Shown one piece after another: positions 47,231 to 62,898 of a stretch of 64,000 bases of DNA; the first letter of the stretch is position 1; each line of letters opens with the position of its first letter. The position numbers and the translations under genes are program-made. The notes under the pieces were generated by a model. It was not told the origin of the DNA, did no database searches, and saw nothing but the letters and a program-made list of their open reading frames with translations. The stretch is from Micromonospora violae (GTDB taxonomy: Bacteria > Actinomycetota > Actinomycetes > Mycobacteriales > Micromonosporaceae). The stretch spans positions 2,294,001-2,358,000 of the forward strand of contig NZ_SHKK01000001.1 in assembly GCF_004217135.1 (NCBI RefSeq), given 5' to 3'.

Positions 47231-49273
47231 CTATCTGCGGGTCCACTGCAGCTGGCTCGTGCCGGCGCTACAGCTGCGCTGCTCGATCAGCGCACCGTTC
47301 ACGGTGCTCTGGCCGACCGTACCCAGACACATCCCGCTGTGCGCGTTGACGAGTTGCCGGGCCTCGTTCAGGGTGAACCGCTGCGCCGGGGTCGTGTTGC
47401 AGGTGGTGAGCTGGATCGCCGCCCCGGCGTCGCTGGACGCGCCGAGCACGTCGAGGCAGCGCCCACCCAACCGCACACTCCCGTCCGCCCGCACCGCCCA
47501 GAGCTGGTGCGACGCGCGGTCGTCCCGGCAGTCCCAGATCCGAAGCCGGACCGGGTCGGGTGAATCGGGCGTGCTGACGTCCAGGCAGCGGTTGCTCGCC
47601 ACCCCGACGAGCTGGTTGCCCGACCGCGCCGGGGGTGCGCTCGGCGTCGGTGACACTCGACGGTCCGGCGTGGCGGACGGGGAGACGCCTCCCGTAGCCG
47701 CCGGCCGGAAGCCCGTGGTGATCTCCCGGAACGCGTCCGTCCCCGCCACCGCCCAGTCGGACTCGGGTGTCAGCCAGGCCAGGCTGTAACCCTGCCGCTG
47801 CGCCGTCGTGAAGGTGCGCCGGCGGGCGTGCATCGCCGTACCCGCCTCGCTGGTGTAGACCCACTCCAGGTCGGCGGCCTTGAGCTGGTAGTCGACGGCG
47901 AGCAGCTCGATTCGGTGGTAGCCGCGGTACCGCTCGCCCACGGCCGGTCCGCCCAGTTCGGCCAGCGGGTCGCCGGGTGGCGAGTCGGTCCGGGTGACGA
48001 CCAGCATCCGTTCGCCGCCCGGCTCGTGGAGTTCCACCTGCTGGCCGTGGCGGGCAATCCGCCAGTCGCGGGGCGCCGGCACGGAGAAGCCGCTGGTGTC
48101 CCGGTAGACCGACCACGAGATCGGCGGGAGAGTAGCGCCCGCCGGTGCGGCAGCGGGCGTCGACGGCGCACCCGGCACGGCCGCGGCGTCCACCAACTCG
48201 GCCCCGCTGCCGGTCGGCCGCGACGCACCGCGGGTGGCCAGTGGAACCCCGACCGCCAGGCCGAGCGCGACCAGGGCCGCGAGGCCGCCGAGAAGCCGGG
48301 TCCGCCGTCGGCGGGCCGGTCCCGGACCGTCCGCCGCCGCTGTCGTCGACGACCGGGGTACGTCGGACGCGCCGACCGGAGCGGACGTGATCGCCGCTGG
48401 TGCGGGCGCGCCGGACGCCGGACGCCACGTCACGGTGATGGGTGCCGGGGTGCCGGCCAGCGCCGCCTGGAGCAACTGCTCGGCCGTTTCGGCGTCCATC
48501 CGCTCGGCCGGGTCCTTACGCAGCAGCCCGGCCAGCACCGGCGCGAGCGGTCCGGCGCGTCGCGCCACGGGAGGCGGCTCGGTGACCAGCGCGCTGAGGC
48601 TCATCAGACTCGACGGCCGGGCGTACGGGGACTGGCCCTCGACGGCGGCGTACAGGGTCGCGCCGAGCGACCACAGATCCCCCTCCGGACCCACCGTGCC
48701 GCGCATGGCCCGCTCGGGAGAGACGTACGCGGGCGAGCCGAGGACCACACCACTGAGGGTCAGGTTCACATCCTCGACGGCGGTGGCCAGGCCGAAGTCG
48801 GTGAGCACGATCCGGCCGTCCGCGCCGACGAGGATGTTGGCCGGTTTGACGTCCCGATGCATGATCCCGGCGCGGTGGGCGGCGCGCAGCGCGCCGAGCA
48901 CGGCCAGCCCGATCTCGGCGGCCCGTGCCGGCGGAATGGGGCCGTCGGTGGTGATGGTGTCGTGCAACGACCGGGACGGCACGTACTCCATCACGATCTG
49001 CGGGTCACCGTCGGCACTCAACAACACGTCGAAGACCCGGACGACGTTGACGTGGTCGAGTCGCGCGATAGCCCGGGCCTCTCGAAGTGACCTGATCCGC
49101 AATTCCTGTCGCGCCTCATTGGTCAGGCCGGGCGGCGGAACGATTTCCTTGATGGCGACGTCCCGTTGCAGCATTGGGTCGCGGGCTTTCCACACTCGAC
49201 CCATTCCGCCCTGGCCGATGAGCTCGACGACGTCATACCGATCGGTAACAAGAAGCGGCAAGATCCGTGACAC
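47231..49273 (-). CDS. Membrane Ser/Thr protein kinase with extracellular ricin-B lectin domain
   Basis: A 680-residue PknB-type kinase. The kinase domain (about 13-270) has GQGGMG, Lys42 (VAIKEI), HRD Asp141 and DFG Asp159, all intact. A Pro/Ala juxtamembrane segment leads to an RRRR-flanked single membrane helix (about 327-347). Outside the cell follow a linker domain (about 380-530) and a complete ricin-B beta-trefoil (about 555-680) with three CLD/QxW-type repeats. The layout suggests a receptor kinase that reads a glycan, perhaps of the cell wall or an exopolysaccharide. The start is GTG at 49273. It has no operon partner. Confidence 0.9.
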   Translation of the reverse strand: MSRILPLLVTDRYDVVELIGQGGMGRVWKARDPMLQRDVAIKEIVPPPGLTNEARQELRIRSLREARAIARLDHVNVVRVFDVLLSADGDPQIVMEYVPSRSLHDTITTDGPIPPARAAEIGLAVLGALRAAHRAGIMHRDVKPANILVGADGRIVLTDFGLATAVEDVNLTLSGVVLGSPAYVSPERAMRGTVGPEGDLWSLGATLYAAVEGQSPYARPSSLMSLSALVTEPPPVARRAGPLAPVLAGLLRKDPAERMDAETAEQLLQAALAGTPAPITVTWRPASGAPAPAAITSAPVGASDVPRSSTTAAADGPGPARRRRTRLLGGLAALVALGLAVGVPLATRGASRPTGSGAELVDAAAVPGAPSTPAAAPAGATLPPISWSVYRDTSGFSVPAPRDWRIARHGQQVELHEPGGERMLVVTRTDSPPGDPLAELGGPAVGERYRGYHRIELLAVDYQLKAADLEWVYTSEAGTAMHARRRTFTTAQRQGYSLAWLTPESDWAVAGTDAFREITTGFRPAATGGVSPSATPDRRVSPTPSAPPARSGNQLVGVASNRCLDVSTPDSPDPVRLRIWDCRDDRASHQLWAVRADGSVRLGGRCLDVLGASSDAGAAIQLTTCNTTPAQRFTLNEARQLVNAHSGMCLGTVGQSTVNGALIEQRSCSAGTSQLQWTRR

Positions 49274-50485: not shown

Positions 50486-51634
50486 GTGATCCAACAGCTG
50501 TCTCCGACCGAGCACCGGCCCGTCGACCTGGGCCCGGCCGCCCCGCGCGTCCGGTTCCGCCACCGCTACCGGGCCGGGACCGCGTCCGCCGCAGGACCGT
50601 CCCAGCGGGCCCAGTGGGCCGATGCCGCGAAGGGCGTCTGCATCGTCCTCGTCGTTCTGTGGCACGTCGTCGTCAAGGACTACCTCCAGATCGACTGGCA
50701 CATCGGCCTACCGGTGCCGGGCTTCTGGGGAACGCTGGGTGAGCAGTTCCTCCCGCTGCGGATGCCGCTGTTCTTCACCATCTCGGGCGTCTTCGCGGCG
50801 AACGCCGCCCAGCGGCCGTGGCGGCTCGTGGCCCGCGGCCGCATCGCCGGGTTCCTCTACCTGTACGCGATCTGGCTGTTGATCCACACCGTGGTCCTCG
50901 CCGCCGCGCCGCAACTGCCCACCGACCGTGCCACCTCGGCTCTCGGTCTGCTGGAGCAGCTCACCATCACCCCGTCCAACCTCTGGTACCTGTACGCCCT
51001 GGCGCTGTACTTCACGATCGCCAAGGCGACCCGTCGGGTGCCCCGGGCGGTGGTCCTGGTCCCCGCCGCCGCGCTGTCCGCTATCGCCGCCGCCGGCCTG
51101 CTCGACACCCCGGGCAACCGCGCCGGCCTCTACCAGAACCTGGTCTTCTTCCTCGCCGGTCTGCACCTGCGGCCACAGATCCAGCAGTGGGCCGCCACCG
51201 CCAACCGGCGTCGTCTGCTGCTGACCTCGGGCGGTTACGTCCTCGCCCTCGCCGCGATGGCGGTGACCGGCGCCCAGCAGTGGTTCGGCGTGTGGCCGGC
51301 CGTCTCCGTGCTGGCAGTGATCTTCGGCATAACCGCCGCTGCCCGGCTGGCCCGGTGGTCGGCGCTCAGCGATCCGCTGGCTAGGCTCGGCCGCATCACC
51401 CTGCCGATCTACGTCATCCACATGCCGGTCCTGGCCCTGCTGCACCGGCTGTTGCTCGTACCGGTTTCCGGGCTGGGCGGGTCCGCTCAGGTCCTGATCG
51501 TGTTCATTTATCCGATTCTGCTGACCGGTCTGGTGATCGGCCTGAGCCTGGCCGTGCACCGCGGGTTGCTGGCGGTTCGCGCCGGTTGGCTGTTCGCGCT
51601 CCCCGCCAAGCGCCGGTTGGCGGCGGCCGGATGA
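50486..51634 (+). CDS. Acyltransferase-3 family membrane protein (VanTm-like)
   Basis: Integral-membrane protein of 382 residues with about ten helices. AT3 features are KGVCIVLVVLWHVVVKDY (conserved His in helix 1), MPLFFTISGVFA and LPIYVIHMPVLALLHR. Alone it would be called an O-acyltransferase. But its last four bases overlap the start of a racemase gene, and the order (AT3 membrane module, then Alr-like racemase) is that of VanT, the membrane serine racemase of D-Ser-type glycopeptide resistance. In the vanL operon these modules are also separate genes (vanTm, vanTr). The GTG start at 50486 is the best available but not certain. Confidence 0.75.
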   Translation: MIQQLSPTEHRPVDLGPAAPRVRFRHRYRAGTASAAGPSQRAQWADAAKGVCIVLVVLWHVVVKDYLQIDWHIGLPVPGFWGTLGEQFLPLRMPLFFTISGVFAANAAQRPWRLVARGRIAGFLYLYAIWLLIHTVVLAAAPQLPTDRATSALGLLEQLTITPSNLWYLYALALYFTIAKATRRVPRAVVLVPAAALSAIAAAGLLDTPGNRAGLYQNLVFFLAGLHLRPQIQQWAATANRRRLLLTSGGYVLALAAMAVTGAQQWFGVWPAVSVLAVIFGITAAARLARWSALSDPLARLGRITLPIYVIHMPVLALLHRLLLVPVSGLGGSAQVLIVFIYPILLTGLVIGLSLAVHRGLLAVRAGWLFALPAKRRLAAAG

Positions 51635-52773
51635 GCGCCCTGGCCGAAGCCCTGGTCGACCTCGACGCCATCGCCAGCAACGTGCGGGCCATCGCGTCGG
51701 TCACCGGCAACGCGCTGATGGCGGTGGTGAAGGCCGACGGGTTCGGCCACGGCGCGGTGCCGGTGGCCAGGGCCGCGCTGCGTGCCGGCGCCACCTGGTT
51801 GGGGGTGACCTCGACGGCCGAGGCGCTGGCCCTGCGCGACGCGGGTGTGACCGCGCCCACACTGAGCTGGCTGCACGGCCCGAACGACGACTTCGGTATG
51901 TTGATCAAGTGTGGCGTCGACGTCGGCGTGTCCACGACGACGCACCTGCACGCCGTCGCCGACGCGGCCCGTCTGCTGGGCGTACCGGCCATGGTGCAGC
52001 TCAAGGCGGACACCGGGTTGTCCCGCAACGGGGCCGCCGGGAACGACTGGCCCGAGTTGGTCGGTTGGGCCCGCAAGTACGAGCGGGAGGGCGGGATCCG
52101 GGTGCGCGGGGTGTGGTCCCACCTCGCCGACGCCGACCTGCCGGGCGCCCCCGAGCTCACCCGGCAGGTGGCGATCTTCGAGGAGGCGCTGCGGACCGCG
52201 CGGGCGGCCGGCCTGGACCCCGACCTCGTGCACCTGGCCAACTCGGCAGCGGCGCTCGACGCGCCACGGACCCGCTTCGACCTCTGCCGGATCGGAATCG
52301 CCCTGTACGGCGTGGACCCGTTCGGCGCCGGCGGTCCGGGCGAGTTCGGGCTGCACGCCGCGATGACGCTGCGGACGAGCGTGGTCAACGTCAAGCGGGT
52401 GCCGGCCGGGACGGGCGTCTCCTACGGGCCCGAGCACGTGACCGACGCACCGACCACGCTGGCGCTGCTGCCGCTCGGCTACGCCGACGGGTTGCCGCGG
52501 GCCACGGGCGGTCGCGCCTCGGTGTGGCTCGCCGGCCGACGGTGCCCGGTCGTCGGACGCATCGCCATGGACCAGTGCGTGGTCGACGCCGGGGATCTTC
52601 CCGTGGCGATCGGCGACCCGGTCGTGGTGTTCGGCCCCGCCGAGGGTGAGCAGGGCCCGCCGACAGTCGTCGAGTGGGCCCGCTGGGCCGACACCAACCC
52701 CCACGAGATCTTGACCGGCATCGGGGCCCGGGTGGCCCGCGACCACCTCCACGGAAGGGCACGTAATTCATGA
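51631..52773 (+). CDS. Alanine/serine racemase (Alr fold, VanTr-like)
   Basis: PLP enzyme of 380 residues supplying a D-amino acid. It has PLP-lysine Lys34 (VVKADGFGHG) and catalytic Tyr265 (GVSYGPEH). The substrate loop reads GYADGLPR, like VanT, where alanine racemases usually have DGYPR. By my alignment the residue equivalent to Tyr354 of Geobacillus Alr (Asn in VanT) is His358 (NPHEIL), so substrate choice between Ala and Ser is open. ATG at 51631 overlaps the previous stop (ATGA), and its own stop overlaps the ligase start, so all three genes are translationally coupled. Confidence 0.9.
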   Translation: MSALAEALVDLDAIASNVRAIASVTGNALMAVVKADGFGHGAVPVARAALRAGATWLGVTSTAEALALRDAGVTAPTLSWLHGPNDDFGMLIKCGVDVGVSTTTHLHAVADAARLLGVPAMVQLKADTGLSRNGAAGNDWPELVGWARKYEREGGIRVRGVWSHLADADLPGAPELTRQVAIFEEALRTARAAGLDPDLVHLANSAAALDAPRTRFDLCRIGIALYGVDPFGAGGPGEFGLHAAMTLRTSVVNVKRVPAGTGVSYGPEHVTDAPTTLALLPLGYADGLPRATGGRASVWLAGRRCPVVGRIAMDQCVVDAGDLPVAIGDPVVVFGPAEGEQGPPTVVEWARWADTNPHEILTGIGARVARDHLHGRARNS

Positions 52774-53792
52774 CAACCCGACTGGCAGTGCTGTACGGCG
52801 GGCAGAGCGGTGAGCACGAGGTGTCCTGCCGCTCGGCGGCGAGCATCCTCGCCCACCTGGACCGTGAGCAGTACCAGGTCACCGAGGTGCTCATCGACCG
52901 CGACGGCGGGTGGCACGTCGACGGCCAACCGACGCCACTGCCGGCGGCGTTGCGCGTGCTGCGCGCCCAGGACGTGGTGTTCCCGGCCCTGCACGGCCCG
53001 TACGGCGAGGACGGCACGGTGTCGTCGCTGCTGGAGTGGCTCGGCGTGCCGTACGTCGGCAACGGTGTCTTCGCCAGCGCCGCCGGCATGGACAAGGGGG
53101 TCACCAAACGGCTCCTCGCGGCGGAGGGCCTGCGGGTCAGCCCGGGGGTGACCCTGCGTCCGGGCGAGGACCTGTCCCCCGATGACCAGCGTCGGTTGGA
53201 GCTGCCGGTGTTCGTGAAGCCGGCCCGGGCCGGGTCGAGCCTGGGCGTCGTGAAGGTGGACGACTGGGCGGGGGTTCCCGCCGCGGTGGAGCAGGCCCGC
53301 CAGGTCGATCCGAAGGTGCTCATCGAGCAGGGGGCGCGCGGGCGCGAGATCGACGTGGCCGTCCTCCAACACCCGGACGGCCGGGTGCAGGCCGGCCCGC
53401 CGCTGGAGATCCGGGTGACCGGCGCCGGCTTCTTCGACTACGACGCGAAGTACGACGGCGGGGCGATCTTCCAGATCCCCGCCCCGCTCGACGAGGCGAC
53501 CACCGAGGTGCTTCAGGACCGTGCGATCCGCGCCTTCCAGGCCCTCGACTGCCGCGGCCTGCTGCGGGTCGACTTCTTCCTGCCGACCGAGGGGTCGCCG
53601 GAGCCCATCGTGAACGAGGTCAACACGTTCCCCGGTTTCACCGCCGCGTCACAGTTCCCGCAGATCTGGCAGCAGGCCGGCATCGGGTTCGCCGCGCTGA
53701 TCGACATCCTGATCTCCGGCGCGCTCGCGGACCAGGACCACAGCCACCACAGCGGGCTGCCCCGGCAGGCACGAGCGGTCGACCTGGTGTGA
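52770..53792 (+). CDS. D-Ala-D-X ligase (Ddl/Van family)
   Basis: ATP-grasp ligase of 340 residues. It shows LYGGQSGEHEVS at the N-terminus, FPALHGPYGEDGT, the ATP-loop PARAGSSLG, and metal ligands in LLRVDFFLPTEG and VNEVNTFPGF. The specificity loop at 222-228 reads FDYDAKY. AKY is the form seen in D-Ala-D-Ala ligases, whereas D-Ala-D-Ser ligases have EKY and VanA/VanB types differ further. The enzyme is therefore probably a D-Ala-D-Ala ligase despite its VanT-like neighbours. It is likely a second ligase beside the housekeeping one. Confidence 0.9.
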   Translation: MTTRLAVLYGGQSGEHEVSCRSAASILAHLDREQYQVTEVLIDRDGGWHVDGQPTPLPAALRVLRAQDVVFPALHGPYGEDGTVSSLLEWLGVPYVGNGVFASAAGMDKGVTKRLLAAEGLRVSPGVTLRPGEDLSPDDQRRLELPVFVKPARAGSSLGVVKVDDWAGVPAAVEQARQVDPKVLIEQGARGREIDVAVLQHPDGRVQAGPPLEIRVTGAGFFDYDAKYDGGAIFQIPAPLDEATTEVLQDRAIRAFQALDCRGLLRVDFFLPTEGSPEPIVNEVNTFPGFTAASQFPQIWQQAGIGFAALIDILISGALADQDHSHHSGLPRQARAVDLV

Positions 53793-53808: not shown

Positions 53809-54315
53809 TCAGCGGATCGGGCACCGCCGAGGCGGCCGGGCGCCGTCCGGCCCGACGATGGTGACCGGACCGGTACTCGTCGCGAGGCCGGTCCGCGCCG
53901 CGGCGTCGGCGGCCGTGCAGACGATCTGGTGGACCGCGTTCACCGACAACGCCCGCGCCGCGGTGGCGGTCCGCACGGTGACGCCATCGGTTTGATCGGC
54001 CGTGGGCGTCACCGTGACCGGGTCGAATCCGGCCGGCACCTCGCTGGTGAAGCCCTGGCGGCGTTCGTTCTCCGCCGGGCCGGCCGCGAGCAGGGCGAGG
54101 ATGGTGGCGGTGTCGGGAACCGCCCTCGCCGGACGGACGACCAGCACGATGTCGCCCTGGGCGACCAGGTAGAGCCCGAAGCCCTGGGCGGGGCCGCTGA
54201 CCGCTGACCGACCGGTGATCACGTCGCTGGGGCGTACCCCACAACCCGCTGCCAGCAGCGTGCTGAGCAGCAGCCCGCCGGCAAGAAGGGCGCGGCCGGT
54301 CCGCCGGCCGCTCAC
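53809..54315 (-). CDS. Small lipoprotein, GerMN-like, in a two-component operon
   Basis: Lipoprotein of 168 residues with lipobox LLAAGC. The mature part resembles the GerMN/sporulation-spore-germination fold (VVRPARAVPDTATILALLAAGP, then a Thr/Val-rich strand region and a second Cys pair). Its GTG start overlaps the kinase stop. A lipoprotein coupled to an OmpR/EnvZ-type pair recalls CseA with CseB/CseC in Streptomyces, where the lipoprotein tunes kinase signalling. That role is inferred from layout only. Confidence 0.8.
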   Translation of the reverse strand: MSGRRTGRALLAGGLLLSTLLAAGCGVRPSDVITGRSAVSGPAQGFGLYLVAQGDIVLVVRPARAVPDTATILALLAAGPAENERRQGFTSEVPAGFDPVTVTPTADQTDGVTVRTATAARALSVNAVHQIVCTAADAAARTGLATSTGPVTIVGPDGARPPRRCPIR

Positions 54316-55769
54316 CGGTCGCCTCCGGCGTCCGTCGTCTCGCGGGGCAGCCGGAGGGTGAAGACCGCGCCGCCGGCCGGGCCGTTGCCCGCGACGAGGG
54401 CCCCCCGTCGCTCGCCGTGGCGGTGCAGCCGCGCGTTCTCCCAGGAGATGGCGAGGCCCAGACCACTGCCCTCGGAGCGGGTACGCGCGGTGTCGGCCTT
54501 GTAGAAGCGGTCGAAGACGTGCGGCAGCACCTCCGGGTCCAGCCCCGGCCCCTGGTCGGCCACCTCGATGGTGACCCAGTCCGGGTCGGCGCTCAGCCGC
54601 ACGGACACCGGTTCGGCACCGTGCCGAAAGGCGTTGCCGACCAGGTTGGCGACGATGACGTCCAGCCGGCGGGGATCGAGCCGGGCCAGCACCCCGGGCG
54701 GCAGGTCGGCGCGTACCCGGTCGACCCAGCCGCGGATCCGCAGGGTCGCGGTCACCGCCGCGCCCACGTCCACCTCGTCGAGGGCGAGCCGCGCCGTGCC
54801 GGAGTCGAACCTGCTGACCTCCATGAGGTCGTTGACCAGTTGGGTGAGGTTCTGCGCCTCCTGGCTGACCAGCCGAGCGGCCCGGCCCGCGTCCCCGGGC
54901 AGGTGGTCGGCCTCCTCGTCGAGCACGTCGGTGACCGCCGTCATCGCGGCCAGCGGCGTACGGAGTTCGTGCGAGACGTCGGCGACGAAACGGCGCGCAT
55001 CGGCTTCCATCCGCCGCAGCTCACCGACCTGACGCTCCAGTGTGCCCGCGGTCTCGTTGAAGGTCCGCGCCACGTCGGCCAGTTCGTCGACACCCCGGAC
55101 CGTCAGCCGGGTGCTCAGGTCGCCCTCACCGAGGCGACGCGCCGCCCGGCCCAGGTCGCGGACGGGTCGCAGGACTCCGCGGGCGGACAGCAGGGCCAGC
55201 AGGACGGCGAGGACCAGGGAGAACCCGCCGGTCAGCCACGCCCTGGTGGCGAGCCGGTCGATGCTCTGCTGCTCGGGCACGAGACTGCGCACCGAGTAGA
55301 CCTCCAGCCCGGACGCCTGGGACGTGCCGTCGGTGCGGTCGAGCTTCAGTTGGGTGCCGATGAGCAGCCAGGGTTGGCCGTTGAGCGAGACACGCTGCCA
55401 GGCGATCTGGCCGTCGCTGACCGCCTGGCGCAGCTCGGGAGTGAGCGGGGCGGGGGTCTGGGAGCCCTGCCCCCGCATGTTGCGGTAGAGCACCACCGCG
55501 AACCCCTCCCGGTCGGAGAGCCGCTGGGCCAACAGGTCCAGCTCAGCCTGGGTCGGCGGGATCTGACTTATCGGGTAGACCTTGGTGAGTTGGTCGGTCA
55601 GCGACAACACGGCCGCGTCCTGCGCCTGTTGGAGAATGACGGTCCGGGCCTGGAAGTAGCTGCCGCTGGCCACGATGGACGTGGTGGTCACCCCCAGCAG
55701 CGCGAACGCCAGGATGAGCCGGACCCGTAGGCCCGATACCTGGGCGGCGATCGAGCGCCAGAACGTCAC
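54312..55769 (-). CDS. Sensor histidine kinase, EnvZ/MtrB type
   Basis: Membrane kinase of 485 residues: helix 1 at about 17-36, an extracellular sensor (40-175), helix 2 (178-196), a HAMP domain (198-250), HisKA with phosphoacceptor His267 (FVADVSHELRTPLAAMTAV), and an ATPase domain (VGNAFRHGAEP, DQGPGLDPEVLPHVFDRFY, GSGLGLAI). The GTG start at 55769 overlaps the response-regulator stop. With the regulator and lipoprotein it forms a three-gene operon resembling AfsQ1/Q2 or CseBC envelope-stress systems. It converges on the ligase gene and may sense cell-wall damage. Confidence 0.92.
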   Translation of the reverse strand: MTFWRSIAAQVSGLRVRLILAFALLGVTTTSIVASGSYFQARTVILQQAQDAAVLSLTDQLTKVYPISQIPPTQAELDLLAQRLSDREGFAVVLYRNMRGQGSQTPAPLTPELRQAVSDGQIAWQRVSLNGQPWLLIGTQLKLDRTDGTSQASGLEVYSVRSLVPEQQSIDRLATRAWLTGGFSLVLAVLLALLSARGVLRPVRDLGRAARRLGEGDLSTRLTVRGVDELADVARTFNETAGTLERQVGELRRMEADARRFVADVSHELRTPLAAMTAVTDVLDEEADHLPGDAGRAARLVSQEAQNLTQLVNDLMEVSRFDSGTARLALDEVDVGAAVTATLRIRGWVDRVRADLPPGVLARLDPRRLDVIVANLVGNAFRHGAEPVSVRLSADPDWVTIEVADQGPGLDPEVLPHVFDRFYKADTARTRSEGSGLGLAISWENARLHRHGERRGALVAGNGPAGGAVFTLRLPRETTDAGGDR

Positions 55770-56458
55770 AGCGGCCCGAACCGGTATCCGAAGCCCCGCA
55801 CGGTCTGGATGTAGACGGGCGACGACGAATCCGCTTCGATCTTGGCGCGTACGCGCTGCACGCACGCGTCCACGAGTCGCGAGTCACCGAGATACCCGTG
55901 CTCCCACACGGCCTCCAGCAGTTGCTGGCGGCTGAGGACCTGACCCGGCGTGTGCGAGAGTTCGAGCAGCAGCCGCAGCTCCGTCGGGGCGAGGCTGACC
56001 GGCGTCCCGTCCTTGCTGACCACCAGTGCGGCCCGGTCGATGGTCAACGCGCCGTGCTGCTCCACGCCGGCCCGGTCGCCGCCGCGCCGCGAGTCGCCCC
56101 CGGTCCGGCGCAGCACCGCGCGGATGCGCGCCTCGAGGACCCGGGCCTGCACGGGCTTGACCACGTAGTCGTCGGCGCCGGCCTCCAGGCCCGCCACCAC
56201 GTCCATGTCGTCGTTGCGGGCGGTGAGCATGATGATCGGCAGGTCACCGAGCTGCCGGATCCGGCGGCAGACCTCGAACCCGTCCATCCCGGGCAGCATG
56301 AGATCGAGGACCACGACATCGGACGGCGTGGTGCGCAACCGCGCCAACCCCTGCTCACCGGTCTCCACGGCGTGCACCGTGTGGCCCTGTCGGGTGAGCG
56401 CCAACTGCAGTCCGTCGCGCACCGTCTGGTGGTCTTCGATCAACAGCACCTGGGACAT
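55766..56458 (-). CDS. Response regulator, OmpR/PhoB family
   Basis: DNA-binding regulator of 230 residues with receiver Asp52 (VVVLDLMLPGMDGF), conserved Lys in YVVKPV, and a C-terminal winged helix (LAPTELRLLLELSHTPGQVLSRQQLLEAVW, TVRGFGYRF). It is first in the operon with the kinase and lipoprotein. The PAP2 gene upstream lies 16 bases away in the same direction, so the four may be transcribed together. Confidence 0.93.
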   Translation of the reverse strand: MSQVLLIEDHQTVRDGLQLALTRQGHTVHAVETGEQGLARLRTTPSDVVVLDLMLPGMDGFEVCRRIRQLGDLPIIMLTARNDDMDVVAGLEAGADDYVVKPVQARVLEARIRAVLRRTGGDSRRGGDRAGVEQHGALTIDRAALVVSKDGTPVSLAPTELRLLLELSHTPGQVLSRQQLLEAVWEHGYLGDSRLVDACVQRVRAKIEADSSSPVYIQTVRGFGYRFGPL

Positions 56459-56474: not shown

Positions 56475-57461
56475 TCATGAGATCTTTCGCGTTTCGGTCG
56501 ATGGCTGCGGCCGCCCGGGGCTTCGCGGCGAACGCGACGTCGGGAAATCGGTCGAACGCACCAGGAACACCACGGCGCCCACCAGGAACATCGTCGACGC
56601 GGCGGCGGCCACGATGGCGACCAGCACCCCGCGCTGCACGGACGCGGCCAGACCGGGCACGATCACCATCAGCGCCCAGACCAGCGCGACCAGTCCGATG
56701 CCCGCCTCGGCCAGCCCGCGCCAGAGGTTGCCGCCGTCCGCACCGCCGGCCGCGCCGCGGTCGCCGGGCCAGGCCGCCAACGCGGCCGCGGCCAGGCAGA
56801 ACAGGGTCACCCCCAGCAGTACGCCACCGAGCACGTCGCTGAACCGGTGCCAACCCGCGATCATCGTGGCGGCGGCGATCACCGAGACACCCGCCGCGCC
56901 CGGCACGGCCAGCCAGCGCCGGGCCCACCCCGGCAGGACCAGCATGAAGGCCAGCAGCACCGCGGTCGCCGCCGCGACATGACCGCTGGGGAAGCTGTTG
57001 TGGGTGGTGGAGCTGTCGATCTGCAGATCCGGGCGGGGCAGCGCCCCCTTCACCGCGCCGGCCACCAGCACCGCGCAGACGACCATGCCCACGCCGACCA
57101 CCCCCGCCACCACCCGTCGGCGGAGCACACCCACCAGCAGCACCACGCCGAGCAGGGACGCGATGAGGGTCGGGCTGCCGAAGGTGGCCAGCACGGTCTT
57201 GGCCGGGCCCACCAGCACGGTCTGCTGCTCGTACCCCCCACCCCGCTCGGCGCGCGGCAGGAGCACGCCGTCGAGCCACTGCCCCGCATACGTCCGCACG
57301 AAGACAGCGGCGGTGAGAGTCAGGGCGAGCAGACCGCACAGCGCCGCCGCGAGCAGCCGAAGCCCCAGCGGCACCGTCGCGCGGGCGGACGGCAGCGGTC
57401 GTGCCGGGCCGGACGTCGAGCGCCCCACGGAGTACAACGATCCGATGGTCATGGCGACCAT
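56475..57461 (-). CDS. PAP2-family membrane phosphatase
   Basis: Protein of 328 residues with six core membrane helices. It carries the three PAP2 signatures KGALPRPD, SFPSGH and GWHRFSD, and three further helices at the C-terminus. Such enzymes dephosphorylate lipid phosphates such as undecaprenyl pyrophosphate, recycling the wall-precursor carrier. That would fit the neighbouring cell-wall genes, but the lipid is inferred. The start is ATG 57461 or 57452. A 259-base upstream region precedes the divergent winged-helix gene. Confidence 0.88.
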   Translation of the reverse strand: MVAMTIGSLYSVGRSTSGPARPLPSARATVPLGLRLLAAALCGLLALTLTAAVFVRTYAGQWLDGVLLPRAERGGGYEQQTVLVGPAKTVLATFGSPTLIASLLGVVLLVGVLRRRVVAGVVGVGMVVCAVLVAGAVKGALPRPDLQIDSSTTHNSFPSGHVAAATAVLLAFMLVLPGWARRWLAVPGAAGVSVIAAATMIAGWHRFSDVLGGVLLGVTLFCLAAAALAAWPGDRGAAGGADGGNLWRGLAEAGIGLVALVWALMVIVPGLAASVQRGVLVAIVAAAASTMFLVGAVVFLVRSTDFPTSRSPRSPGRPQPSTETRKIS

Positions 57462-58340: not shown

Positions 58341-61300
58341 TCAGCACTTGATCGGCACCAACCCGAAGTTCTCCACCGTGGGAGTGGTGGTGTTGACCTT
58401 CGTCTGGCGGGTCTGCGGCTTCCAGCCGTCCTTGGCGACGATCATCGTGAGCGGGTTGTTGCGGCGGTCCACCCAGTAGGCGTACTTGCCCTCGGCGTCG
58501 GTGGCGAAGGTGTACGACGCCGCCCACGAGTCGACCTGCACGACCGCGCCGGTGATCGGCGAAGTCCCACCCTGGCAGCTGCTGCCGATGACCGTCCCCA
58601 TGAGCTTGCCCCAGGTCTTCGGGGGGTTCACGGTCATGGCCACCGCGACCGGCGCCACCGAGTACGGGGTGTTCTCGGAGATTCCGACCGAGCCGAGGTA
58701 GGTGCCCGGCTGGTCCACGTTCGCCGTCAGGCCGACGGTGACCGTGACCTTCTCACCCGGCTCGAGGGTGGCCGACGTCTTGTCGATGGTCATCCAGCTG
58801 ACGTCGGCCGCCGCCTCGGTGCATCCCTCGAAGCCCGGGAGCACCTCGTTGTTGGCGGTCGCGTCGAAACTGCCGGCCGAGCCGCCGATCTTGTAGAAGC
58901 CGCATGCCGCGCCGCCCCGGTACCGGGGGGCGTTGGCGTTCGGCAGGCTGGACCACGAACCGGCGGCCGGGTCGAAGGCGAAGCCGGCGTTGCTGATCGC
59001 CCCACCCTGCGAACCACCGACGACGAGCAGCTTGCCGCTGGCGACAGCGAACGAGCTGGCCCAGTTGTCGCTCGGCGCGTCAGCGATGGCAGTCCACGTG
59101 TTGGCACCCGGGTCGAAGGCGTAGCTGGACTTCTGCGAGGCGGAACCGTCGTTGCCGCCGGTGCAGTAGAGCACGCCGTCGATCCCACCGCAGGAGGCGA
59201 AGGCCACCGACTTCGGGTAGTTGGCCATCGCCGCCCAGGTGTCGGTGACCGGGTCGTACTGGACGACGCTGTTCGACATCGGCGTGCAGGCCGACGTCGT
59301 GCAGCCACCGACCGTGTACAGCTTGCCGTCGACGACGCCCTGACCGGCCGCGGCCCGGGGTGCCGGGTTGTCGGCCAGCTCGGTCCAGGTGTTCGTCCCC
59401 GGGTCGTACGACCAGGTGGCGGAGTCCGGGCCGGCGTCGGCCCAGCCACCGGTCACGATGATCTTGCCGTTCACCACGCCCGCGGCCACGGCGTTGCGGG
59501 CGCCCGGAAGGTCGGCGATCGCCGTCCAGGTCTGTGCGGCCGGGTCGTACACGTAGTTCTTGGTGGTGGACGCCGTACCGTTGCCGCCACCGATCGAGTA
59601 CACCTTGCCGTCCAGGTTCACCACCCGGTTGTCCATGATCACGGACGGGTAGTTGGCGATGTCGGTCCACGGCGCCGCGTTCGGGCCGACCGCAGAGGCG
59701 GCGGCCTTGGCCTCCTTGCCGGACGCCTTGGCGGCGAACGACGTCGGCACGGTGAGCCGCTGCTCCGGCGCGCCGCTGGAGCCGAGCACCTGCTGGCGGG
59801 TGACCGTGGACCCGTCCGCCCGCAGGAGTTCGAACCCGTTGTCGCGCTCACCGAACTTCACCTCGACCGGCGCCCCGCCGGTGTTGGTCACCGTGAACGT
59901 CTTGCTGGTCTTACCGCTGGGCATCTGGAGCGTCGCGTTGAGCTCCGTCGGCGTCACCGACAGTCGGCCGGCCGCGAGCTGGAAGTTCGCGGTGGTCGCC
60001 CAGTCGGCCTCGACGTCGACCGACTTGGTCAGGCTGACGTAGTTGCCGGCGCTCGCCGTGAACTTGTACGAGCCGGTCAGCGACGAGTAGATCCAGTAGA
60101 AGCCGTCGGCCAGCCCCGGGTCGTCCGGGGTCGCCACGGTGACGGCCTTCTCGGCCGGCCGGTCCTTGCTGGTGACGGTCGCGCCGTTGACGTAGCTGCC
60201 GTCGTTCTTGTCGCGGACGTTGCCGACGACCAGACCGCCGTCGACCGGCGTGCAGAGGACCGTGCTGCCGATCAGGACGTTGTCGATCTCCCACCACCAC
60301 TCGTACGAGGCGTCGTAGTAGTGGAACCGCACCTGCACCTGCGCCTGACCGGCGGCCTGCGGGATCGGGATCTCGGTCAGCTTCGGTCCCCGGACGTCGG
60401 TCTCCTGGCGGAGCACGTTGGTCCAGGTGGCACCGCCGTCGATGCTCAGGTCGACGTCGGCGGTGTCGTCGTTGAGCTGGTTGAAGTCCTGGTTGAACCG
60501 GATCACCGGGGCGGTGACGTCGGTCAGGTCGACCACCGGGCTGACCAGGGAGGTGTCCTGGCTGGTGCCCGGCCCGTAGTCGTCGCTGTCGATCATTGCG
60601 AAGTTGCCGGTGCCGCCGGTCAGGTTGCCCCGGTTGCCGTCGTCGGTGAACTTCCAGACCTGACCGCTGCCCGCGTTGTCCACGACGGTCCAACCGGCCG
60701 GCGTGGTCGTGGCGTCGAAGGTCTCGTACTCACCGTCGGAACCGAACGTGTACCCGGGTGCGGTGGTGCAGGCATTGCTCTCCACCGGCACGGCGACGTT
60801 GGCGGTGGCGTTGCCCGAGCCGACCACGACCTCCTTGGTGACGGTCTGGTAGCCCGGGTACTGCGACTCGTACTTCAGGGTGTACGTCTGCCCGGCCGGC
60901 AGCTTGATGCTGTAACGGCCGTTCGCCGGGTTGGTGTAGTCGTAGACGCCGGACACCCCGGTCACGGTCACCTTCGCGTACAACGGCCAGCCGTGGCCGG
61001 AGCCGTCGGTGACCGCACCGGTGACGTTGACGCTCGGCACCGCCGTGAGGGCGACGTTCACCGTCGTGGTCGTACCCTTGGCGATCGTCGCCGTCCTGGT
61101 GACGCTGCCGTAGCCGAACGCCGCGACGGCGACCTGGTAGTCGCCGATGGGGAGCTGGGTCGAGAATTTGCCGTCGGCGCCGGTGGTCAGCTCACGCGCG
61201 GTCGGGCCGGTGAGCGTCAGGGTCGCCCCGGCGACCGCGGTGCCGGAGGACGCGTCGGTGACCGTGCCGGTCAGCGTGCCGATGTCGCCGGTCGGGGCGG

Positions 61301-62765
61301 CGTTGAGCAACGCGAGTGCGTCCAGTCGGCCTTCGCCGTAGACGTTGTTGTCGGCCGCGGTGCCACCGCACTGGTCGTCGGCCTTGTCGATCGCGGCACC
61401 GTTGAGCAGCGCACGGGTCGCGTTGACGTCACCGATCAGCGACGGGGCCGCCGAGTACAGCAGCGCGATCGCGCCCGCGAGGTGCGGTGCCGCCATCGAG
61501 GTGCCGCTGATGCTGCCGTAGGCGCTGCCCGGGATGCTCGACCGGACGTTCACGCCCGGCGCGGAGATGTTGGGCTTGATCTCGCCGTTCTGACCGACGC
61601 CGCGGGCGGAGAAGCCGGCCACGTTGTTGTTGATGTCGTACGCGCCGGTCGAGTAGTTGCTGACGAGGCTGCCCGGCGAGCCGCTGGTCTGGCAGGCCGG
61701 CCCGCTGTTGCCGTTGGACCAGGTGCCGAAGATCCCGGAGGCGGTCCAGGCGTCCGTCACGTCCTCCATGAACGGCTCGTTGGACGGGTCGCGGGTGCCC
61801 CACGAGTTGTTGATGATGTTCGGTCGCTTGCTCGCGTCCGGGTTCTGGCCGTTGAGGTCCAGCGGCTCGAGCATCCACTGACCGGATTCGATCAGAGCGG
61901 CGTCACTGGGGCAGCAGCCGTTCGCCGCGATCCACGTGACCCCGGGGGCGACACCGATCTGGTTGGCGCCGTCGGCGCCGGCCATGGTGCCCATGGTGTG
62001 CGTGCCGTGACCGTCGCCGTCGCAGGGCGCGGTCGCGCAGGCACCGCCGGCGGAGGCGGCGTTGAACCAGTTGTAGTTGTGGTCGAACGTCCCGTCACCG
62101 TTGTTGCCCCGGTAGGAGTTCACCAGCGCCGGGTGGTCGAACTGCACCCCGGTGTCGATGTTCGCGACGGTGATGCCCTCGCCCGTGACGCCGTACTGGG
62201 ACCAGACGTCGTCGGCGTTGATGTTGGCGATGCCCCACTCCAGGGCGTTCACGGTCTTCTCGTCGGTGCCCTTGGTCGTCTCGGGCACCTTGTACGCGAC
62301 CGGGGCGTAGAGGCCCTCGACCTCCGAGTGCCCGGCGAACTTCTGGGCCATCGCCAAGGAGCCGCTGTTCACCTTGATGGCGTTGGTGGCCCAGAAGGTC
62401 TGGTACTTCGTGCCCGAGCTGTCGAGGTCGGCCCGGATCTTGCCCTGGCTCGCCGCGGCGGTCTTGCGCAGCGCGTCCGCCACCGCCGTCCCGCGCTTCG
62501 ACCAGTCCTTGATGGCGCTGGCCTTGCTCAGGTCCGCCTTGTCCTTGAACCGGATCCAGAAGTCGCCTTCACTCTTGGCCTGGAGCTGCTTGGCGAGCTC
62601 CGGTCGGATCTTGTCCCCGGTCGAGGTGCCCGCCCCCATCTCGCCGCCCGGCGCGGCCTGCGCGCCGGAGCTGATGGTGGCCAAGCATGTCGCGGCGAGG
62701 ATTGTCGCCGCGCCGGCGCTCACCAGTGATCTGGCTGTGCGCCGCCATTGTGGACGTCTGAACAT
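58341..62765 (-). CDS. Giant secreted S8 serine protease with Kelch repeats
   Basis: A subtilase of 1474 residues. It has a signal peptide (1-37), an inhibitor-like propeptide, and a catalytic domain (about 190-500) with Asp204 (NIDTGVQFDHP), His253 (GDGHGTHTMGT), oxyanion Asn353 (SNGNSGP) and Ser423 (SGTSMAAPH). Behind it follow two carboxypeptidase-regulatory-like domains (about 510-680), a jelly-roll/immune-inhibitor-like domain (about 690-850), another beta domain, a six-bladed Kelch propeller (about 1120-1390) and a final regulatory-like domain. It resembles bacillopeptidase F-type proteins. The ATG at 62765 follows GAGGAGG; an ATG 19 codons upstream is unlikely. Confidence 0.92.
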   Translation of the reverse strand: MFRRPQWRRTARSLVSAGAATILAATCLATISSGAQAAPGGEMGAGTSTGDKIRPELAKQLQAKSEGDFWIRFKDKADLSKASAIKDWSKRGTAVADALRKTAAASQGKIRADLDSSGTKYQTFWATNAIKVNSGSLAMAQKFAGHSEVEGLYAPVAYKVPETTKGTDEKTVNALEWGIANINADDVWSQYGVTGEGITVANIDTGVQFDHPALVNSYRGNNGDGTFDHNYNWFNAASAGGACATAPCDGDGHGTHTMGTMAGADGANQIGVAPGVTWIAANGCCPSDAALIESGQWMLEPLDLNGQNPDASKRPNIINNSWGTRDPSNEPFMEDVTDAWTASGIFGTWSNGNSGPACQTSGSPGSLVSNYSTGAYDINNNVAGFSARGVGQNGEIKPNISAPGVNVRSSIPGSAYGSISGTSMAAPHLAGAIALLYSAAPSLIGDVNATRALLNGAAIDKADDQCGGTAADNNVYGEGRLDALALLNAAPTGDIGTLTGTVTDASSGTAVAGATLTLTGPTARELTTGADGKFSTQLPIGDYQVAVAAFGYGSVTRTATIAKGTTTTVNVALTAVPSVNVTGAVTDGSGHGWPLYAKVTVTGVSGVYDYTNPANGRYSIKLPAGQTYTLKYESQYPGYQTVTKEVVVGSGNATANVAVPVESNACTTAPGYTFGSDGEYETFDATTTPAGWTVVDNAGSGQVWKFTDDGNRGNLTGGTGNFAMIDSDDYGPGTSQDTSLVSPVVDLTDVTAPVIRFNQDFNQLNDDTADVDLSIDGGATWTNVLRQETDVRGPKLTEIPIPQAAGQAQVQVRFHYYDASYEWWWEIDNVLIGSTVLCTPVDGGLVVGNVRDKNDGSYVNGATVTSKDRPAEKAVTVATPDDPGLADGFYWIYSSLTGSYKFTASAGNYVSLTKSVDVEADWATTANFQLAAGRLSVTPTELNATLQMPSGKTSKTFTVTNTGGAPVEVKFGERDNGFELLRADGSTVTRQQVLGSSGAPEQRLTVPTSFAAKASGKEAKAAASAVGPNAAPWTDIANYPSVIMDNRVVNLDGKVYSIGGGNGTASTTKNYVYDPAAQTWTAIADLPGARNAVAAGVVNGKIIVTGGWADAGPDSATWSYDPGTNTWTELADNPAPRAAAGQGVVDGKLYTVGGCTTSACTPMSNSVVQYDPVTDTWAAMANYPKSVAFASCGGIDGVLYCTGGNDGSASQKSSYAFDPGANTWTAIADAPSDNWASSFAVASGKLLVVGGSQGGAISNAGFAFDPAAGSWSSLPNANAPRYRGGAACGFYKIGGSAGSFDATANNEVLPGFEGCTEAAADVSWMTIDKTSATLEPGEKVTVTVGLTANVDQPGTYLGSVGISENTPYSVAPVAVAMTVNPPKTWGKLMGTVIGSSCQGGTSPITGAVVQVDSWAASYTFATDAEGKYAYWVDRRNNPLTMIVAKDGWKPQTRQTKVNTTTPTVENFGLVPIKC

Positions 62766-62898
62766 CGGTGCTGCCTCCTCAGAACGACCCAGGGTGTGAT
62801 GGGCCATGGTGGACCTCCCCATGCACCGCGCGGGTCACGCCGGTTGCCCGAGTGGACACTATGATCGAGAAGAACGGACGATCAAGAACTTGCCGTGA

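Follow-up and report, generated by a model that had tools for sequence, protein, structure and literature searches.

A putative D-Ala-D-X peptidoglycan-precursor cassette of AT3 protein, Alr-fold racemase and Ddl-type ligase in Micromonospora violae and other actinomycetes

We begin by considering the described systems that come closest to a three-gene cassette of Micromonospora violae. The cassette encodes an AT3 membrane acyltransferase-like protein, an Alr-fold amino-acid racemase and a Ddl-type ATP-grasp ligase, and lies in a stretch of 64,000 nucleotides (2294001-2358000 of a 7.14 Mb single-contig genome) that we call the window. The vanC/E/G/L operons for D-Ala-D-Ser combine VanT, a D-Ser ligase and VanXY, and D-Ala-D-Ser termini reduce the affinity of glycopeptides (PMC7325946). 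The AT3 domain of VanT has a role called unknown in a review (PMC9558356), and is said to be unconsidered so far though resistance mutations fall there (PMC12423673). Passages of PMC8698665 describe the pdx operon of Micromonosporales, which holds a PALP serine-threonine dehydratase, a Ddl-like, a VanX-like and VanRS-like genes. The same passages report loci that combine vanRSY with a racemase gene and a Ddl gene, present in Allonocardiopsis, Murinocardiopsis and, rarely, Geodermatophilales; a D-Ala-D-Ser-like mechanism is what the authors propose for them.

Gene order, residues, phylogeny, linkage and co-occurrence, all directly observed, support a reading of the cassette that we consider moderately probable: a module for remodelling peptidoglycan precursors to D-Ala-D-X, probably D-Ala-D-Ser, convergent with VanT/VanG. 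At each junction the neighbouring genes overlap by the four bases ATGA (51631-51634 and 52770-52773), and the coordinates and Pfam families confirm what an earlier note on this DNA had said of them. The AT3 protein scores 106.6 bits with Acyl_transf_3, the racemase 198.7 with Ala_racemase_N and 137.1 with Ala_racemase_C, and the ligase 190 with Dala_Dala_lig_C. The GTG start of the AT3 gene has a position common to most of the orthologues aligned, and the catalytic Lys and Tyr are retained in the racemase.

We turn our attention to the specificity residues of the ligase. The earlier note took its AKY loop (A226 K227 Y228) as a sign of a D-Ala-D-Ala ligase. The loop is present, but Phe222 and Gln295, overlooked in that reading, mark the cassette ligases, and AKY alone is therefore insufficient to call a D-Ala-D-Ala ligase; a VanX-like gene in the operon of some relatives weakens the reading further. 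Phe222 stands at the site that we take to be Tyr216 of DdlB, and Gln295 where Ddl usually has Met. Phe at the former site and Gln in an S-Q-F/Y-P motif are found in all 41 cassette rows (39 distinct genes), while the 14 other Ddl rows have Tyr (13) or Phe (1) at the one site and Met (12) or Ala (2), never Gln, at the other. The single Phe belongs to a Ddl outside the cassette clade (L109, genome G387), which reads WFDFEKKY and has Ala at the Met site. The VanG-like reference ligase (locus L080) also has Phe at the Tyr216 site, and the pdx ligase has Phe and Met. The structure 4fu0, which we take to be VanG, reads FFDYTEKY (Phe, EKY) and SRYP (Arg) where the window ligase has AKY and SQFP; our numbering of D-Ser ligase residues rests on alignment to 4fu0. 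A "vanG" of Acetoanaerobium (L076) was set aside as a VanG reference, because it reads FYDYDAKY and is Ddl-like.

The racemase is changed at two sites as well. At the gate (the Bst Tyr354 site) the window reads TNPHEIL against TIAYEIV in 1vfh, a Streptomyces Alr, and the His358 given by the earlier note is correct. The gate is His in 34 of 39 cassette rows (37 distinct genes) and Asn in the other 5; Asn occurs in 4 of 19 rows of the genus and also in Asanoa and Promicromonospora. Of the 14 rows of other Alr that can be read here, 13 have Tyr and 1 has Trp, and the VanT reference (L080) has Asn. Tyr354 has been linked to the substrate specificity of Alr, and VanT carries Asn at that position (PMC3485190). 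At the Tyr43 site, all readable cassette rows but one (37 of 38) have Phe, the exception being L050 with Asn, versus Tyr in 16 of 16 others. The two enzymes change together: in an outside sample of 80 loci from named genomes, among the matches listed, all 8 loci with an adjacent racemase of non-Tyr gate have Phe and Gln in the ligase, while the remaining 72 have no Phe and one Gln (L155); of those 72, only L190 has a racemase close by, and its gate is Tyr.

The next question is where the two enzymes come from. In the ligase tree, a single group of 40 of the 59 rows (support 99/98) unites the cassette ligases; it lies within actinobacterial Ddl and is separate from VanA, VanB and the VanG-like ligase. 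In the racemase tree, the cassette racemases form one clade (39 of 54 rows, support 93/100) far from VanT. By these trees, in which long branches make the exact places of outer members unsure and the references are one VanT and one VanG-like ligase, the cassette ligases are offshoots of actinobacterial Ddl and the cassette racemases of actinobacterial Alr. The NCBIfam vanT models agree, since all score the window racemase below cut-off (vanT-G-Cterm 198.6/460, vanT-CELN 111/900, vanT-L-cat 82.7/750). An NCBIfam search at E<=1 gives no match, VanT models included, for the AT3 proteins of the window, L050 and the Streptomyces plasmid L077, and a weak MdoC match for that of L065; the L080 VanT matches vanT-CELN and vanT-L-mem below their cut-offs, and the best blastp E of the window AT3 against it is 0.033. 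The earlier note had likened the locus to a VanT split in two. The likeness of order beside a ligase stands, while we set descent aside given the missing VanT-model match of the AT3 protein and the distance of the racemase from VanT; the proposal of an ancestor of van operons is not supported either. That note had also allowed for an AT3 protein far from VanT modules and near exopolysaccharide acyltransferases, and the model search agrees with the former part. Because the descent is from actinobacterial Ddl and Alr, away from the Van enzymes, the likeness of the cassette to VanT/VanG is probably convergent.

The arrangement recurs. A ligase at 68% identity or more is found in 53 of the 151 genomes of the genus (the own genome counted), with a clear gap between cassette ligases (at least 346 bits) and other Ddl (at most 272 bits). 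Among 20 neighbourhoods fetched, the racemase adjoins the ligase in 18, a window-type AT3 is present in 11 (broken in L043) and a window-type kinase in 14. Given the 53 of 151 genomes and the 18 of 20 neighbourhoods, the arrangement is not due to chance. M. tarensis, whose ligase is a 94% match to that of the window, has the same neighbours, and M. phytophila is another carrier. An order-wide search covers 298 genomes, and of the 8 candidates from other genera that were fetched and examined, 4 (L064-L067) have an adjacent racemase and 4 (L068-L071) lack one. Named carriers outside the genus are Asanoa siamensis, Catellatospora sp. KI3, C. paridis, Catenuloplanes japonicus, Promicromonospora sp. 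AC04 and Saccharomonospora sp. NB11. In the last of these (L195) a gap of about 1.6 kb divides the match to the ligase, and response regulator, histidine kinase and lipoprotein genes resembling the window ones follow on the same strand. Three Streptomyces linear plasmids each carry one racemase-ligase fusion gene (L077:5879-8065, L081:6001-8202, L082:6001-8262), annotated only as alr; an AT3 gene then follows in one of the three and a GNAT gene lies downstream in all three. These are the sole fusions seen: long open frames had hinted at fusions within the genus, and the offsets checked by hand in L037 and L039 are out of frame.

The AT3 gene provides a second line of evidence. Its subfamily gives 71 matches in 68 of the 151 genomes, of which 37 sit 1.1-1.4 kb upstream of a cassette ligase on the same strand; another 32 have a pdx-type VanX 1.3-2.5 kb downstream of them, and two, in G009 and G083, are unplaced. 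Seven of 8 pdx loci fetched have the order response regulator, histidine kinase, AT3, PALP, ligase, VanX. The eighth (L204, G128:C72) has AT3, PALP and VanX without a ligase in a genome with a window-type cassette, whose ligase may serve both. The PALP enzyme is unrelated to the Alr-fold racemase, and its model relatives are mostly serine/threonine enzymes. The core between AT3 and VanX is thus of Alr type in some loci and of PALP type in others, and since the same AT3 subfamily accompanies either the Alr-type pair or the PALP enzyme with its ligase, the cores look interchangeable; this interchange is the strongest hint in the sequences that both may make the same product. The own genome has a pdx operon (L018:5287-9898, G000:C1:6653286-6657897) with a response regulator, a histidine kinase, a PALP Ser/Thr-dehydratase-like enzyme, a ligase (WFDYQQKY, SMYP) and a VanX-like gene. 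It lacks AT3, as does that of G144 (L207), and both genomes carry AT3 in the cassette. The pdx AT3 proteins form one clade (100/99), joined to the AT3 of L042 with weaker support (90/91), and the K-x10-H motif is retained in all 23 rows of the subfamily printed from the alignment. No AT3 at 1e-50 is found in 14 of the 53 cassette genomes. Next to the pair in L050, and likewise on plasmid L077, stands an AT3 of a second subfamily; these two proteins are 49% identical and the only intact ones, and L047 and L074 give N-terminal matches only.

VanX-like proteins of the M15 family accompany the cassette. They are found in 45 of 53 cassette genomes versus 41 of 98 without it. The gene is in cis, beside the ligase, in 12 of the 53 (3 of these partial), and no second VanX-like protein at 1e-20 is found in those 12; among the other 41 cassette genomes, 33 have it elsewhere (Fisher p = 3e-5 against 41 of 98, shared ancestry uncorrected), and all 33 have AT3. 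Six cis proteins aligned retain HxxGxxxD, EWWH and GYRP as in enterococcal VanX; of those run against models, L042 and L050 are above the Pfam Peptidase_M15 cut-off, and L042 is below that of NCBIfam VanX. The order AT3, racemase, ligase, VanX occurs in G067 and G071 (L042 and L043, the AT3 broken in L043), and the order racemase, ligase, MurG-like, VanX in L046-L050 and L074 (VanX partial in L046). The MurG-like proteins are glycosyltransferase family 28 members (L048 and L073 run against Pfam); MurG alongside some actinobacterial van operons is already reported (PMC8698665). The window-type sensor kinase is almost confined to cassette genomes and travels with the cassette: 42 of the 151 genomes have it, 41 of the 53 with the cassette and 1 of the 98 others, and the assembly of the latter (G083) is fragmented and contains a piece of an AT3 gene.

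The window enzymes are additional to housekeeping copies. The earlier note had allowed for a ligase that is the only Ddl of its genome; among 13 ligase-family matches there are 4 clear Ddl-type ligases, namely that of the window, one about 5 kb downstream of gpsA (L017) that we take as housekeeping, that of the pdx operon, and a very divergent one (L019:6659-7738, YDYAARY) about 2.4 kb from a gene that is parB-like by eye. Alr-type racemases number two. In 15 genomes checked, the 9 with a cassette racemase have two Alr genes each and the other 6 one each, the single Alr of G181 being split into two matches. The window pair is thus neither an only copy nor of the Tyr-gate, Tyr/Met type.

For substrate, product, induction, role of the AT3 protein and any antibiotic phenotype, we infer the following course. 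The racemase would produce not D-Ala but a different D-amino acid, most likely D-Ser (or another polar D-residue), which the ligase would join to D-Ala; the resulting D-Ala-D-X, most likely D-Ala-D-Ser, would pass to MurF and then to the wall. The convergent two-component system may sense envelope stress and turn the module on. A VanX-like dipeptidase, from the pdx operon in the own genome and from the cassette in some relatives, would clear the competing D-Ala-D-Ala, and the AT3 protein may contribute to this pathway from the membrane, either as a supplier of L-serine or by acylating a precursor. Several observations weigh against this course. The window has no VanX in cis, and no VanX at 1e-20 is found in 8 of the 53 cassette genomes; the co-occurrence statistics are uncorrected for shared ancestry; and two of the 20 neighbourhoods (L051, L053) keep the ligase without the racemase. 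The window ligase lacks the EKY and Arg of VanG and has AKY, the common Ddl form, and its Phe column is also Phe in L109 and, by an uncertain loop alignment, in VanA/B, so that Phe by itself does not decide the question. Finally, the window gate is His, for which we have met no precedent in a serine racemase.

The main rival is D-cycloserine insensitivity, in which the cassette would supply second, drug-tolerant copies of Alr and Ddl that still make D-Ala and D-Ala-D-Ala. The gate aligns with position 364 of 1xfc, which we take to be the Alr of M. tuberculosis. The change Y364D raised the half-maximal inhibitory concentration of D-cycloserine for M. tuberculosis Alr about 50-fold (PMC5700341), and Alr and Ddl are both targets of D-cycloserine (PMC5717164). 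However, this leaves the AT3 common to the pdx operons and the Asn gate variants unexplained, and the sister operons carry a MurG-like gene and a VanX-like dipeptidase that would destroy D-Ala-D-Ala; we regard the rival as unlikely. The same cis dipeptidase of some relatives speaks against the membrane-organised supply line of ordinary D-Ala-D-Ala offered by the earlier note, which as a back-up or developmental route appears very improbable: the catalytic residues looked at are all present and the loop is AKY, but the coupled changes at substrate positions are retained in every cassette row.

The earlier note's idea of a new precursor dipeptide is, by contrast, supported. In one form of it, X is not Ser, Lac or Ala (e.g., Gly, D-Thr or another polar D-residue) and the terminus is new. 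The combination of Gln295, AKY and Phe222 differs from the VanG-like reference with its Arg and EKY and likewise from common Ddl with Met and Tyr, and the Phe at the racemase Tyr43 site speaks for this form too. Serine, however, is favoured by the relatives with an Asn gate and by the interchange with an enzyme of the Ser/Thr-dehydratase type, and we give a non-serine terminus little chance. Returning to a D-Ala-D-Ser-type product, we put forward tentatively that chemistry of the VanT/VanG type evolved for a second time in actinomycetes, out of the Alr and Ddl that they already had, with AT3 as a recurrent, racemase-independent part of D-Ala-D-Ser-type pathways; AT3 is found beside an Alr-type core (cassette), beside a PALP-type core (pdx operons) and fused to VanT in Firmicutes.

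The features of the locus are collected in Table 1. The PAP2, response regulator, histidine kinase and lipoprotein-like genes (57461 down to 53809) run convergent to the cassette, and a PAP2 gene is near the window-type kinase in 13 of the 14 neighbourhoods having that kinase. A Pfam search of the lipoprotein-like product gives no match. As the earlier note said, the window has no vanX-like gene: no Peptidase_M15 gene is found there, in a search of the M15 family only (none was made for vanY- or vanH-like genes), and two are found elsewhere in the genome. The gene of the 1493-aa protein is also found beyond the cassette in L034-L041.

Table 1. Features of the cassette and its surroundings (positions in the window)
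Feature	Position	Strand	Remarks
Ser/Thr protein kinase	47231..49273	-	ricin-type lectin domain at C-terminus
AT3 membrane acyltransferase-like protein, 382 aa	50486..51634	+	Pfam PF01757; GTG start; K-x10-H motif (DAAKGVCIVLVVLWH)
Alr-fold amino-acid racemase, 380 aa	51631..52773	+	Pfam; gate His358 = codon 52702-52704; Phe38 at Bst Tyr43 site
Ddl-type ATP-grasp ligase, 340 aa	52770..53792	+	Phe222 = codon 53433-53435; Gln295 = codon 53652-53654; AKY loop
Small lipoprotein-like gene	53809..54315	-	adjoins sensor kinase; convergent to cassette; "lipoprotein" is a by-eye reading
Sensor histidine kinase	54312..55865	-	best NCBIfam MtrB, below cut-off
Response regulator	55766..56458	-	best NCBIfam CseB, below cut-off
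PAP2 phosphatase	56475..57461	-	upstream of response regulator, 16-base gap
1493-aa protein	58341..62822	-	subtilase domain, carboxypeptidase-regulatory-like domains, Kelch repeats

A swapped precursor end, most likely D-serine, would resemble the change that gives vancomycin resistance in some bacteria, with an apparently separate origin. The module points to more than one origin of D-Ala-D-X switching from housekeeping enzymes and to additional systems of this kind in actinomycetes, some of them as racemase-ligase fusions on Streptomyces linear plasmids. In this soil genus AT3 has a gene to itself, which moves between two racemase-ligase cores that are unrelated; deletion of this gene alone, followed by measurement of the wall precursors, is therefore feasible. 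If the proposal is true, the AT3 step, beyond serine racemisation, would be part of the wall change. The passages of PMC8698665 contain no mention of an AT3 gene, a Phe/Gln signature or an Alr-type cassette in Micromonospora. A literature search over titles and abstract starts finds no other description of the cassette, and one on Micromonospora peptidoglycan chemistry finds nothing.

We close by comparing the cassette with the known systems. Like the vanC/E/G/L operons, it has an AT3 module with an Alr-fold racemase and a Ddl-type ligase next to it, a two-component system, the ligase loop Phe of VanG and, in some relatives, an Asn gate and a cis VanX-like peptidase; unlike them, its genes are separate and of actinobacterial Alr/Ddl descent, its gate is His, its ligase has AKY and Gln295, its AT3 falls outside the VanT models, and the window has no D,D-peptidase in cis (M15 search). 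With the pdx operon, which in congeners holds the same AT3 subfamily between kinase and PALP gene, it shares a similar proposed chemistry, while its core is an Alr-fold racemase unrelated to the PALP enzyme and its ligase is different. The vanRSY loci with racemase and Ddl genes likewise place that pair beside van-like regulators; in the passages describing them they are rare and given without residues, AT3 or VanX, and we set them apart by description, not by sequence. Housekeeping Alr and Ddl share the fold and the catalytic residues and are the nearest phylogenetic neighbours, whereas the cassette enzymes are extra copies in separate clades with changed specificity residues.

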